Shown: one piece after another, positions 6,128 to 11,214 of the stretch
Layout: every line of letters starts with the position of its first letter
Position numbering within the stretch: position 1 is the stretch's first letter
Source of the DNA: a virus
Virus record (IMG/VR): IMGVR_UViG_3300021425_000094
Coordinates: 1 to 36,179 of that record
Length of the DNA: 36,179 nucleotides
Reading direction: 5' to 3' (one strand)
Notes under the pieces: generated by a model
What the model was told of the DNA's origin: nothing
The model's database searches: none
What the model saw: only the letters and a program-made list of their open reading frames with translations
Made by a program: the position numbers and the translations under genes

Positions 6128-8581
6128 TTAACTGTGCGTGATGTTCCAACCCTTCGATCTTAAAAATGCAATTTTTTCAAGAGTGCCTTCATTTGGTGCT
6201 GAATTGTTTCTTAAGTTTATCGTTACTCCTCCACGACTTACTTCTTCATAATTATCAACAAGATCATTAATAATTTGTTCAATTGCTTGTTGTGTAAGAC
6301 TATTATTTGATATATCCATGTATCTAATTCTATATAGTTCCTTAAATGATCCTTGTTTGTAGTTAGTAAATCGGTTATTATATAGAATTAGGTAATACAA
6401 GTATGGGCATTCAGTAAAGTCAGGAATCTCACCAGCAATCTGATTGTTATGTGCGTAGAAGTATCTCAGTCTTGGTAAGTTCTGGAAAGTTCCGATAGAA
6501 GTGAAACTATTATTATACAAAAAGAGATAATAGAGGTTAGAAAGGTTCTTGTAAGAAGGGATCTGTCCAGTCAGTTGATTATAACCAAGTTGTACATAAT
6601 AAATGTTTGGATTTGCAGCAAAGTTTGGAACTGATCCACTAAACCTATTATGATACATCCAAATGTATCTTAGATTTGGATTTGATCCAAAATTTGGAAG
6701 AGATCCTGTTGTTCTTCCACGGGAACGATACCAAAAATAATAGAGAGAAGAGCAAAAAGTTAGACAATTGGGGTGGATTGGAGAAGTCAGAAGATATCCA
6801 GAGTCCAACAAAATATAATATATTGATTTAAGGTCCTTGAAGGTATTTTCTGGAATTACATATGAAGTGTCACCAGATGGGTCTCCACCAGTAATATAAG
6901 TGTATCTCAGATCAAGATAGTAGAGTGATTCATTTGTGAATCGTGGTAATGCTCCAATAACATAAGATGCATAGCAATGAAGATAACGTAATGATGCACA
7001 ATTATCGAATCTATAGGTAGATCCAGAAAAAAGTGATCCAAGACTTCTACAATAATATGCATAGAAAATTTGAAGAGACTGTTTTCCAATCGTATTTTCT
7101 GGAAATTTTAAACCAGTAGAATGGATGTAAATATTAGTGATTGAATTATTATTTGCACTGATTGAAAATGTAGAATCGGTCAAGTAGTAATTTCCTGCCA
7201 AATATAAAGTAGATAAGTTGGTAAGTTGTTTTACGTTATAAGTATTTCCAGATCCACTTGCAGTATTGTCAATGCTTCTAAAATCATTAGATCCAACTCC
7301 ATAATATGTGCATGTATTCGGAACATTTGGCATTTGAGCACTTGGTTGGTACGTATCTGGGTGGAAATATGCGCCTCCACCTCTATTGAAATTAATAACT
7401 CTTAAATTCGGGAACCTATTTGCAATAATATTTTGATCTATGGAACCATAAAAAGTTCCTTCCATATAAAGTTCTCTTAATGATGTTGGGAATTTATTTG
7501 CAACACCAGTACTAAATCTTCTTTCACTTTCTATATCACTTTGATATAAAGGATTTCTCATCAAATAGATGTACAATAAATTTGGAGCAATTATATTGAA
7601 ATTGGGTAATGTTCTTAATTTATTATATGCGAAATCCAGTGTTGATGCATTTATGAATTTTACGACTGGTAACTCTGAAATATTTGCAGATTGAATTTGG
7701 ATTCGAGAAATTCGATCTGGATTGTAATAGAATTGGATATATCTTTCCCTAGATGTAGAAGATCTGTATCTTATTGTAGAAGTTGTATTGCCAACATTTA
7801 CATATTTTGAGTATCTACTTTCATTTGCAGTCTCAACGATTTTCCAACTAGCAGGAGTAGATTTTATCAGTCTGTCAAGATTAACAGTTGCATTTAAATT
7901 TCTAAAAAATCCTGTAAAAATAACAGGAATTCCTTTCATTGCATAGAGAGTTACTGTTTGTCCCCCAATATTGCACTGGATTTTTGAAGTTGGAAACTCG
8001 GATGGAAATTCTTTTTGTTGTGGTACTATTGCTGTTTGTATTCTTGGTCCACTAATTTCTGCAGACTGAGTTCCAAATTGCAAAGAACCGCCACTGATGA
8101 TGGTTGTTCTTGCTCCGTATGATATTCTTGCTTTTCCTTGGATTGTTAGATCTGTACTCGTTGCTCTTGGGTCACTGGAACTCCAAGCACTAATTCTAGA
8201 TGTGGAAATATCACCAATTCTAATTGTTGCAGATCCGCCGAATCCGTCCAAATAACGATATCTAATTGCAAACCCACTTAAAGCTCCACTAATGTTTAAA
8301 TTCCCAAATAAGGTAACATCTGTTCCCGCTCTTTTTTGTAAGATTCCATCATACTGTTCCGAATCCCTATAATATCTGTCTAATGTTTCGTGGAGGGGAA
8401 CACTTAATCTAGAAAAACTAATCCAGTCGTGTCTACTGGCACCAGCATCTGCAGATCCAGCAATAATTTCTAGATCTAAAGGATTTAAATTAAGTTCCTT
8501 TAATGCAGAAGTCTTACTTTCTACATCAGATAAAAAACTTAAAACATTAAGTCCGAATATTTTTGGGTTTCTAATTGCCAT
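6128..8581 (-). CDS. Leucine-rich-repeat virion protein, putative host-recognition adhesin
   Basis: The 817-residue product has an N-terminal structural segment (residues 1-290, MAIRNPKIFGLNVLSFLSDV onward) followed by leucine-rich repeats from about residue 300 to 770. The clearest repeats are 22-23 residues long, for example NLRYIWMYHNRFSGSVP, NIYYVQLGYNQLTGQIP and LRYFYAHNNQIAGEIP, which match the plant-type LRR pattern 'L..L.L..N.l.G.IP'. Many consensus Leu positions are Tyr or Phe. The C-terminus (VTINLRNNSAPNEG, then LRSKGWNITHS) resembles the capping segment of bacterial LRR surface proteins. LRR folds bind proteins or glycans, so a surface-exposed receptor-binding role is inferred. 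There is no signal peptide. It has a modest ribosome site (AGGAAA) and sits 11 bases after a 14-codon relic of a tail-fibre N-terminus. It is the first full gene after the late promoter at 8660-8668. Confidence 0.85.
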   Translation of the reverse strand: MAIRNPKIFGLNVLSFLSDVESKTSALKELNLNPLDLEIIAGSADAGASRHDWISFSRLSVPLHETLDRYYRDSEQYDGILQKRAGTDVTLFGNLNISGALSGFAIRYRYLDGFGGSATIRIGDISTSRISAWSSSDPRATSTDLTIQGKARISYGARTTIISGGSLQFGTQSAEISGPRIQTAIVPQQKEFPSEFPTSKIQCNIGGQTVTLYAMKGIPVIFTGFFRNLNATVNLDRLIKSTPASWKIVETANESRYSKYVNVGNTTSTIRYRSSTSRERYIQFYYNPDRISRIQIQSANISELPVVKFINASTLDFAYNKLRTLPNFNIIAPNLLYIYLMRNPLYQSDIESERRFSTGVANKFPTSLRELYMEGTFYGSIDQNIIANRFPNLRVINFNRGGGAYFHPDTYQPSAQMPNVPNTCTYYGVGSNDFRSIDNTASGSGNTYNVKQLTNLSTLYLAGNYYLTDSTFSISANNNSITNIYIHSTGLKFPENTIGKQSLQIFYAYYCRSLGSLFSGSTYRFDNCASLRYLHCYASYVIGALPRFTNESLYYLDLRYTYITGGDPSGDTSYVIPENTFKDLKSIYYILLDSGYLLTSPIHPNCLTFCSSLYYFWYRSRGRTTGSLPNFGSNPNLRYIWMYHNRFSGSVPNFAANPNIYYVQLGYNQLTGQIPSYKNLSNLYYLFLYNNSFTSIGTFQNLPRLRYFYAHNNQIAGEIPDFTECPYLYYLILYNNRFTNYKQGSFKELYRIRYMDISNNSLTQQAIEQIINDLVDNYEEVSRGGVTINLRNNSAPNEGTLEKIAFLRSKGWNITHS

Positions 8582-8592
8582 ATATTTTCCTA

Positions 8593-8637
8593 TTAGACAG
8601 TTCTCATATTGACTATTAGGGGTCTACGAGATACCAT
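8593..8637 (-). pseudogene. 14-codon relic of a collar-fibre N-terminus, or leader ORF
   Basis: ATG at 8637 opens MVSRRPLIVNMRTV then TAA. The first ten residues are identical to the start of the 207-residue collar fibre (MVSRRPLIVNSAANQ) and nine match the 185-residue one. The DNA is also close: plus-strand 'tattagNggtctacgaga' is common to all three. The rest of the fibre is absent. The mini-ORF has a late promoter just upstream and ends 11 bases before the LRR start codon, so ribosomes could pass from it to that gene. It is either a truncated fibre gene or a reused leader. Confidence 0.7.
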
Positions 8638-8708
8638 ATCGATTGATATTACGATAAAAGTATTTATCAATAACTAGTCAGACAGTTTTCATAGAGATCT
8701 TAGGGTCT
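8596..8708. repeat. Imperfect direct repeat flanking a late promoter
   Basis: Copies at 8596-8625 and 8681-8708 share the frame gacagtt-tcata and end in agGGGTCT or taGGGTCT. On the minus strand both read ATG, a basic codon, ACT GTC, stop (MRTV and MKTV). The starts are 85 bases apart, and the space between holds the late promoter at 8660-8668. The second copy looks like a more decayed version of the fibre-anchor relic. Confidence 0.5.
8660..8668 (-). promoter_or_regulatory. T4-type late promoter candidate (GATAAATAC)
   Basis: The same nonamer as at 1483-1491 lies 22 bases upstream of the mini-ORF ATG and about 80 bases upstream of the LRR gene. It is embedded in a small inverted repeat (GATAAA 8653-8658, TTTATC 8663-8668). 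It would start a transcript covering the mini-ORF, LRR and glycine-rich genes. Confidence 0.58.
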
Positions 8709-8709
8709 G

Positions 8710-9324
8710 TCAAGACAGTGGTAGATACGTCAGGGAATCTATACTCCCTAAACTTTCTTTTGCAAACGTATTAAACGACAAACTAATACGTGTATTATCA
8801 GATGTATTTTTAGATACTGAATGTCTTAGGTCTGAAGGAAATAAAATTAACTCTGCTGTTTTAGCAGGAACTAATCTATAATAATTATTACGTTCATTTA
8901 ATGTGTGATATTTTAAGAGGAGATTGCCAGGATGAGGTCTTTGAAATTTCATACATGGCATATCCTCATCTAACGCAAAGTAAAATACTCCACTTAAAAT
9001 ACTATTTGGATGGGAATGTTCTTGGTGTTCTTGTCCGAAAAAACTTTTATTGATCCACGATTGAGTGATGATCAATTCTGTAGAAGAACCCCAAACATAA
9101 TTCATGTACATTTTAATCCTGTCTTCAAAGAAAGATTTTAATTTTGAAAGAGCAGGATTTTTTAGTACGAAAGTATCTTTAGATTGCATGTTATAATTTG
9201 CAGTTTCACTTTTATTTTCTCTACTACAATCTAAATTATTAACATACTCTTTTTCTTCTTCAAAGTTTTCATCATAGGATGACACCAAAATGGGGGTAGT
9301 AAAAGTTTCAATTAAGTTGTTCAC
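8710..9324 (-). CDS. 2OG-Fe(II) oxygenase family protein
   Basis: This 204-residue protein fits the putative 2OG-Fe(II) oxygenase family (2OG-FeII_Oxy_5 / TIGR02466 type) common in cyanophages. The diagnostic blocks are SWINKS near residue 89, EHSHPNSILSGVFYF at 102-116, and FPSDLRHSV with TRISLSFNTF at 162-187. The likely iron ligands are H103 or H105 with H168, and R179 is the likely 2-oxoglutarate-binding arginine. These assignments come from family pattern, not alignment. The start codon is GTG at 9324 and overlaps the TGA of the previous gene (GTGA). A strong Shine-Dalgarno GAGGAG (9331-9336) six bases upstream supports this start and suggests translational coupling. The substrate is unknown; candidates are virion fibre residues or a host metabolite. 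Confidence 0.85.
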   Translation of the reverse strand: MNNLIETFTTPILVSSYDENFEEEKEYVNNLDCSRENKSETANYNMQSKDTFVLKNPALSKLKSFFEDRIKMYMNYVWGSSTELIITQSWINKSFFGQEHQEHSHPNSILSGVFYFALDEDMPCMKFQRPHPGNLLLKYHTLNERNNYYRLVPAKTAELILFPSDLRHSVSKNTSDNTRISLSFNTFAKESLGSIDSLTYLPLS

Positions 9325-9995
9325 AAGGTTCTCCTCAAAAGGTCATGGGAAATTTGATTTAAATTAAATATTGCTTCAGTTATATATTCATTTGATTCAG
9401 TTCTATCAAGAACTCGTAGAGATTCATTTACTTTATAATGAATCGATCTTAAAAAAGGATCTGAAAATCTGGAGGTAGTCCAAAATACTGCTGCTAATCT
9501 TTCTCCAGATTCTACGGTAGATACCTCATGGAGGATGCCTGTGTCGTATGTTATTGCTTCACCAGCATCAAGTTTTATTTTATGAGAACCAAAATCGTTA
9601 TGTAAGACAAGTTCTCCACCTTCATAAGTATCAGGATCAGATAAAAACACCGTTGTACTATAGTGTCCGTTTAATCCTAAATCGTGATGTAACCTATAGT
9701 AATCACCCATTTTCATCTTTGTTATCATAATAAATCCAGTGGTTTTAGGACAAACCAATAGATCAAAACCACCATCTCTTTCAAGAGCATTAATAATTAT
9801 TGAATTAATATTAGAGTTAATTTGATAATTATTAAGTTGAGTTAATTGTTTAAGTTGTTTTGTATTTTCGTTACTATTAGAAACTGAATGAAGTCCATCC
9901 ATCCAATCAGTTTCTACAGTGCTTGAAAGTAAGTTACAAATTTGTTGTAGTTCATAGTCAAGTAATAATTTTCTAGAATAATGATGTTGAGTCAT
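9321..9995 (-). CDS. PKHD-type 2OG-Fe(II) hydroxylase (PiuC/YbiX-like)
   Basis: The 224-residue protein has the length and layout of PKHD-type hydroxylases (prolyl-4-hydroxylase fold). It carries an HxD iron motif at H103-x-D105 within YRLHHDLG, a TTVFLSDPDTYEGGELVL block at about 114-131, distal His at H156 (GILHEVS) and the 2-oxoglutarate arginine at R166 (SGERLAAVFWTTS). All four expected catalytic positions are present, so it should be active. Homologues are frequent in T4-like cyanophages, with no firmly known substrate. It begins ten bases after the collar-fibre stop and overlaps the next oxygenase gene by four bases. The two enzymes therefore form a coupled pair inside the fibre gene cluster. 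No clear Shine-Dalgarno precedes its ATG. Confidence 0.9.
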   Translation of the reverse strand: MTQHHYSRKLLLDYELQQICNLLSSTVETDWMDGLHSVSNSNENTKQLKQLTQLNNYQINSNINSIIINALERDGGFDLLVCPKTTGFIMITKMKMGDYYRLHHDLGLNGHYSTTVFLSDPDTYEGGELVLHNDFGSHKIKLDAGEAITYDTGILHEVSTVESGERLAAVFWTTSRFSDPFLRSIHYKVNESLRVLDRTESNEYITEAIFNLNQISHDLLRRTL

Positions 9996-10005
9996 AGTTA
10001 AAATA

Positions 10006-10563
10006 TCATAGTTTCATAATGTATGCAAGAGCATAGTAAGGAGGTCTGTTTTCGTGGTAGTTGTTGCCGCCCTGGTTGCCAGTGTATTGATCCCCTGGAT
10101 TGTCGTTTGCCATGTCAGTTTGTGCATTAGGACCAGAACCCTGCTGATAAATTCTTCTTTCATTATAAGTATGATTATGCTGCGGCATTTCAGCAACAGT
10201 CAATTTATGAGCAACTGTACCACCAGTGTTTCCAGGACCATAGTTACCACTAGTAACACCACTTGTTGCATTAAATGTTACACCACTTGCCCCATCACTA
10301 TGAGCACCAACAATAAATTTATCCCTTAAATCTGGTGTACCATTAGAACCATTACATAATGCCCATCCAGATGGAATAGTTGCAATACTTCCAGACCACA
10401 TTACAATGCCTCCAGTTGGAAATATTCCAGTTAGTGATGAACCATCTCCAATAAAACTCTGAGCAGTAATACTACTATTTGGTAGACTTAGGTCATCAGA
10501 ATCAGTTAACTCCTGAATCTGATTAGCTGTACTATTGACTATTAGCGGTCTACGAGATGCCAT
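10006..10563 (-). CDS. Tail-collar domain short fibre protein
   Basis: The 185-residue protein has an N-terminal anchor of about 34 residues (MASRRPLIVNSTANQIQELT to NSSITA), then a phage tail-collar domain starting GGIVMWSGSIATIPSGWALC with the hallmark TPDLRDKFIVGA. It ends in a His-rich stretch (AEMPQHNHTY) and RPPYYALAYIMKL. Collar domains of this kind occur in T4 gp12 short tail fibres and MdpB-like proteins; gp12 binds lipopolysaccharide as a trimer. The protein is short, so it is probably a small fibre or tip. Its anchor is almost the same as in the next fibre upstream, whereas the C-terminal parts differ. A late-promoter box lies 16 bases before the ATG, with no good Shine-Dalgarno. 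Confidence 0.88.
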   Translation of the reverse strand: MASRRPLIVNSTANQIQELTDSDDLSLPNSSITAQSFIGDGSSLTGIFPTGGIVMWSGSIATIPSGWALCNGSNGTPDLRDKFIVGAHSDGASGVTFNATSGVTSGNYGPGNTGGTVAHKLTVAEMPQHNHTYNERRIYQQGSGPNAQTDMANDNPGDQYTGNQGGNNYHENRPPYYALAYIMKL

Positions 10564-10590: not shown

Positions 10591-11214
10591 TTAGTACTTG
10601 ATGCAAGCAAGAAGTGCGATGTTACGGGGACGGGTTTCGGGGTCACCACCGTCGATGGTGTGCTCATGAGCACCGCCTCCGCCAGTAGTAGCACCAGTAA
10701 ATGAATCATAAAGAGAATGTTGATCAGGACCATCATCCGTAATACTTGCCACATACTGAAGTATACTATAACCGTGGGTGTGATCACCAGGGTCATCAGT
10801 ACCAAATGGGTTATTAGGTAGTGCAGTAGAGTCAGTTTGACTGCTACCAAACGTACGGCCACTATCTACACCAGCACTATCATCCCAACCACGAAGAAAC
10901 TCACCACGAAGGTCAGGTAGTTTACCAGCACTTCCATAGGTAGAACCAATTATTGCATACAATGCAGAGAAGTCAGCAGTTACACCTTGAACAGTACCAG
11001 AACCATTAGGGATTGTATCACCATTTGCTTTTAAGTATCCAACTGGTGCTGTACTTGCGGCAAAGTGAAATACTGCACCAGCTGGAACTGTTCCATTTCC
11101 AATAAAAATTGAAGCAGTAATACTACTATTTGGCAGACTTAGATCATCAGAATCAGTTAACTCTTGAATCTGATTAGCTGCACTATTAACTATTAGAGGT
11201 CTACGAGATACCAT
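10591..11214 (-). CDS. Tail-collar / long-fibre-tip type protein
   Basis: The 207-residue protein starts with the same 34-residue anchor (MVSRRPLIVNSAANQIQELT) and continues with a collar-like domain: VPAGAVFHFAASTAPVGYLK, then SALYAIIGSTYGSAGKLPDL and RGEFLRGWDD. It has a His-containing segment (DPGDHTHGYS, GGAHEHTIDGG) and the classic ending ETRPRNIALLACIKY. The RGEFLRGWD and RPRNIAL elements are typical of phage side-tail-fibre C-termini, where His pairs coordinate metal ions along a trimer axis. It sits between the 1234-residue structural gene and the second collar fibre. Its late-promoter box overlaps the stop codon of the preceding gene. Confidence 0.88.
   Translation of the reverse strand: MVSRRPLIVNSAANQIQELTDSDDLSLPNSSITASIFIGNGTVPAGAVFHFAASTAPVGYLKANGDTIPNGSGTVQGVTADFSALYAIIGSTYGSAGKLPDLRGEFLRGWDDSAGVDSGRTFGSSQTDSTALPNNPFGTDDPGDHTHGYSILQYVASITDDGPDQHSLYDSFTGATTGGGGAHEHTIDGGDPETRPRNIALLACIKY

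Follow-up and report, generated by a model that had tools for sequence, protein, structure and literature searches.

A 14-codon reading frame before an LRR gene of a cyanophage-like contig as a probable remnant of a collar-fibre gene

Translated leaders, or upstream open reading frames that are coupled to the next gene, are short open reading frames (ORFs) that end a few bases before the following start. By analogy, a 14-codon ORF in front of an LRR gene (hereafter the stub) may be compared with them, as it is likewise short, has only a few bases between its stop and the LRR start and stands behind a promoter match. The closest loci in gene order are found in related viral contigs, in which a collar fibre lies between a large structural gene and an LRR-family gene. 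L002 (IMG/VR 3300023180_000109) and L003 (3300033182_000988) resemble the stub locus in having the same kind of start, the same 3′ end and the same downstream LRR gene, to which L002 adds the same Shine-Dalgarno (SD) spacer. They differ from it in carrying a full fibre and in lacking a second fibre, oxygenases in front of the LRR gene and a promoter match immediately ahead of it.

The stub is located in a viral DNA of 36,179 nucleotides (IMGVR_UViG_3300021425_000094, analysed as a whole and called the window), which, judged from its 429-aa tail-lysozyme/hub-like protein that is closest to cyanomyoviruses (S-SCSM2R, 44% identity), is evidently from a T4-like cyanophage or a near relative. The locus is read from the minus strand. 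Two intact collar fibres, A (207 aa, MVSRRPLIVN..., 10591-11214; Pfam Collar 7e-11, phrog_523) and B (185 aa, MASRRPLIVN...YIMKL, 10006-10563; phrog_5795 and phrog_1800 tail collar fiber), are followed by two 2OG-Fe(II) oxygenase genes of 224 aa (9321-9995; Pfam PF13640, 3e-10) and 204 aa (8710-9324; Pfam PF13759, 3e-21), by the stub and by the LRR gene (817 aa, 6128-8581; Pfam LRR_8 / LRR_4), which has relatives in L002, L003, L009, L010 and others. Both oxygenase genes belong to a 1.4-kb stretch that is present only in the window and in L001 (IMG/VR 3300022200_005414), the only other genome with the stub; searches of viral_contigs for further copies of the two genes returned only L001, for the 8710-9324 gene at the sensitivity used.

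The stub occupies positions 8637-8593 of the gap (8582-8709) between the oxygenase gene whose stop ends at 8710 and the LRR gene. It reads MVSRRPLIVNMRTV-stop (MVSRRPLIVN-MRTV-stop; codons ATG GTA TCT CGT AGA CCC CTA ATA GTC AAT ATG AGA ACT GTC TAA) and a TAG follows at once. A first-pass annotation had stated that this frame ends 11 bases before the LRR ATG, that MVSRRPLIVN repeats the collar-fibre anchor start exactly and that the frame has its own late promoter. The distance was confirmed on the minus strand (8593 against 8581). The repeat is exact for the protein of fibre A (fibre B starts with MASRRPLIVN) and amounts to 29/31 identical bases for either fibre at the DNA level, and what supports the promoter is a match to the motif, GATAAATA, at 8668-8661, which is 31 nt ahead of the stub ATG.

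The fibre-like head comprises the ten anchor codons and one further base of a collar-fibre gene (8637-8607). Its 31 bases match the fibre starts at 10563-10533 and 11214-11184 with E = 3e-8 each in the 36-kb window, and a degenerate anchor pattern gave 0 matches in 100 shuffles. The stub head departs from fibre A at two bases, both synonymous, as would fit selection on a peptide, but two changes are too few for a test. The match starts at the ATG: further upstream the fibres have the leader AATAAATAAAGAAAAAACAGTATA in common, and the sequence upstream of the stub is unrelated to it. Compared with the relatives, positions 8638-8730 gave no homology worth noting.

The remainder of the stub, the last four codons and the stop (MRTV-stop, 8607-8593), aligns with the end of the LRR-proximal collar fibre of L002, so that homology to the missing fibre extends to its 3′ end, represented by MRTV, a point that the first-pass annotation did not make. 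Tail and spacer together are identical to the L002 fibre end in 24/27 alignment columns (ATGAGAACTGTCTAATAGGAAA-ATAT in the stub, ATGAGAACTATCTGATAGGAAAGATAT in L002), with a score of 37 that compares with at most 24 for about 4,000 random segments. The spacer (8592-8582, TAGGAAAATAT) contains the SD match of the LRR gene and is the same in L002 (TAGGAAAGATAT) and L018 (TAGGAAAGATAC). The block of L002 homology, which takes in the LRR gene, the spacer and the fibre tail, is unbroken and ends at 8607, where the head match begins, and the two blocks thus meet at one junction. This leads to a reading of the stub as the head and tail of one fibre gene from which the middle was removed in frame. 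The two ends have at most a base or so in common at the junction, which makes an illegitimate joint likely.

A head that is short, that begins at the start codon, that is close to both resident fibres and that has unrelated sequence upstream could also have arisen as a short copy, by gene conversion or template switch with fibre A or B as the source, placed beside the tail of a fibre that was lost otherwise. Such a copy is judged very unlikely, as the MRTV tail with its continuous L002 homology shows that a fibre gene ended there, and one in-frame deletion explains head, tail and frame together.

The relatives were collected by scanning IMG/VR with a pattern of the anchor codons, which gave L001, L002 and L003, and by further scans that gave more LRR-family starts and anchors. 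The LRR proteins of L002 and L003 are 76-78% identical to that of the window, and their genes are immediately preceded by a complete collar fibre of 173 and 192 aa, which starts with MASRRPLIVN and ends in IMRTI and IMRTT, respectively. An intact fibre with the same kind of start and the ending MRT(I/T/L)-stop precedes the LRR-family gene in 9/9 relatives with a collar fibre directly at this place (L002, L003, L009/L014, L010/L017, L013, L016, L021, L025 and L026). These fibres have 170-192 codons, and their stops are separated from the LRR-family gene by 1 or 12 nt (12 nt in L002; 1 nt in L003, L009/L014, L010/L017 and L021). In L016, a 236-kb contig, the LRR-family frame is broken about 100 nt after its start, which is either a sequencing error or a real mutation.

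Other contents of the slot were observed as well. L018 (minus strand, 898-1149) has an 83-codon gene there, with a fibre anchor (MANRRPLIIN), a short non-collar body and the spacer TAATAGGAAAGATAC before the LRR-family gene; it has the anchor family and the spacer in common with the window and differs in its 83 codons and its body, which suggests that the fibre anchor is shared between different bodies. L019, L020 and L022 keep the LRR-family gene without a fibre separating it from the large structural gene; the LRR start of L022 is immediately preceded by the fibre-type leader. Anchors additionally occur before other genes in L015, L028 and L030 and are cut by the contig end in L027 and L029. 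All other anchors in the viral contigs continue as a longer gene (83-207 codons) behind a AATAAATA-type leader; the stub alone lacks both the continuation and the leader. Among intact collar-type copies the length is 167-207 codons; 14 codons cannot hold the collar domain, and the functional domain is lost from the stub. The features by which a pseudogene of the collar-fibre family can be recognised, 5′ homology, 3′ homology at the orthologous position and domain loss, are all found in it. A tblastn search of isolated phages found no LRR relative, and no isolate was observed to have this arrangement; no LRR relative was found in prokaryote genomes, and the papers searched contained nothing on this locus.

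The first-pass annotation had regarded the stub as the scar of a third cassette whose body was replaced by the LRR adhesin. The scar is supported by the relatives, which carry a full collar fibre at exactly that position. The replacement draws on the position of the anchor start directly in front of the LRR gene; it is contradicted by the synteny and by the preserved 3′ end, as nine relatives have the LRR-family gene, with its own complete and conserved N-terminus, downstream of an intact fibre, and the last codons of the fibre survive in the stub, together with the spacer. Replacement of a third fibre body by the LRR gene is hence regarded as extremely improbable. Judged by gene order, the slot is evidently variable, and the LRR gene is evidently its steady and ancestral downstream neighbour, which did not replace the fibre body.

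The motif NATAAATA has been reported as a late-promoter motif of cyanomyoviruses (PMC2984593). The window has 8 copies of it, every one on the coding strand and no more than 125 nt ahead of a gene start; such regions cover 3.6% of positions (P about 3e-12). Among ten relatives examined, only L022, which has no fibre and keeps the fibre-type leader, has the motif at most 150 nt before the LRR start. The occurrence of GATAAATA upstream of the stub would, by its motif, assign the locus to a late T4-like cyanophage transcription unit. Two oxygenase genes separate the LRR gene of the window from the fibre promoters, and GATAAATA at 8668 plausibly serves the LRR gene. For a structured RNA leader or a terminator in the intergenic stretch, fold energies were like those of shuffles (z of -0.09, -0.46 and -0.97). 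No terminator-like site was found on the minus strand of this stretch, and sigma-70 promoters were no more frequent than in shuffles.

The LRR start has its own SD, AGGA, with a duplex energy of -4.2 kcal/mol, compared with +0.6 kcal/mol before the stub, where no SD match was found. The missing SD is mild evidence against translation of the stub; its weight is only mild because other genes of the phage, including fibres A and B (-1.0), have weak or no SD matches. This bears on a reading that assumes the same deletion origin as the preferred explanation and differs from it on present function, in which the stub is retained as a translated leader and ribosomes re-initiate at the LRR ATG 11 nt further on, replacing the coupling by the full fibre; a ribosome-coupling leader was the alternative named in the first-pass annotation. 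The in-frame deletion, the preserved spacing from stop to start (11 nt, with 12 nt in L002 and 1 nt in others), the promoter match ahead of the stub ATG and the synonymous differences from fibre A all agree with such a leader. Apart from the SD energies, it is opposed by the 1-in-3 chance that a deletion is in frame anyway and by the persistence of the LRR-family gene without any fibre in L019, L020 and L022, while the conservation of the stub is uninformative, as the window equals L001 from 8316 to 9383. A translated leader is thus considered unlikely. The same low probability is given to a use for the anchor start and stop that were kept in frame, either as a leader that would set LRR output or as a 14-residue peptide that would cap the fibre attachment site.

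Between the oxygenase stop and the promoter match lies an imperfect direct repeat of the stub from codon 5 to the stop (8708-8679, minus strand, AGACCCTAAGATCTCTATGAAAACTGTCT). Its local alignment score of 28 is reached by 0.2% of dinucleotide shuffles and was spotted after the fact; the repeat is suggestive of a second, older and more decayed copy of the stub.

L001 has an identical stub, promoter match and neighbours and is 98.4% identical to the window over 12 kb. The 1,068 bases around the stub (8316-9383) are identical in the two genomes and offer no substitutions to test for selection. Fibre B of L001 (2212-2766) is unlike that of the window (10006-10563, minus strand), with a different body after about codon 64: 85/558 sites differ, almost all of them after codon 64, compared with 0-1.8% in neighbouring genes. 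On this comparison, fibre bodies at the locus are evidently exchanged, and the fibre B difference is apparently a recent cassette exchange; with two intact copies alongside, the loss of a further fibre body is in keeping with such turnover. The head was also considered as a recombination site and rejected as such, since the visible exchange starts after about codon 64 and not at the head. Upstream of fibre B (window 10584), 12 nt made up of AATC/AATA-type units are inserted in L001, immediately ahead of the promoter motif of fibre B.

The best explanation is that the stub is a collar-fibre remnant, formed by an internal in-frame deletion and now most likely functionless in the leader of the LRR gene, and this is held to be quite probable. 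The ancestral fibre would have had the large structural gene on one side and the LRR-family gene on the other. As the comparison with the relatives shows, the deletion fused anchor codons 1-10 with the four final codons and the stop; about 156-178 codons were lost if the ancestor had the fibre length of the relatives (170-192). The sequence upstream of the start has also been exchanged: in place of the usual AATAAATA-AAAGAAAA leader, the stub is now preceded by two 2OG-Fe(II) oxygenase genes and the GATAAATA promoter match. The order of events is a reconstruction, as none of the genomes found combines this oxygenase stretch with an intact third fibre. Fibres A and B, the upstream copies, would be the functional fibres of the phage. 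The stub would now lie in the 5′ leader of the LRR transcript, most likely with no function of its own, and the LRR gene would be read from its own SD site.

The locus provides a clean example of change at a tail-fibre locus in cyanophages that is fixed by synteny. The slot, flanked by two structural genes, is empty in some genomes and in others filled by a complete collar fibre, by a short variant or, as in the window, by a head-to-tail stub next to two further fibre copies and two oxygenase genes. The fossil of an in-frame deletion can thus survive as a tiny ORF in a phage leader, where it could pass for a purpose-made leader peptide.
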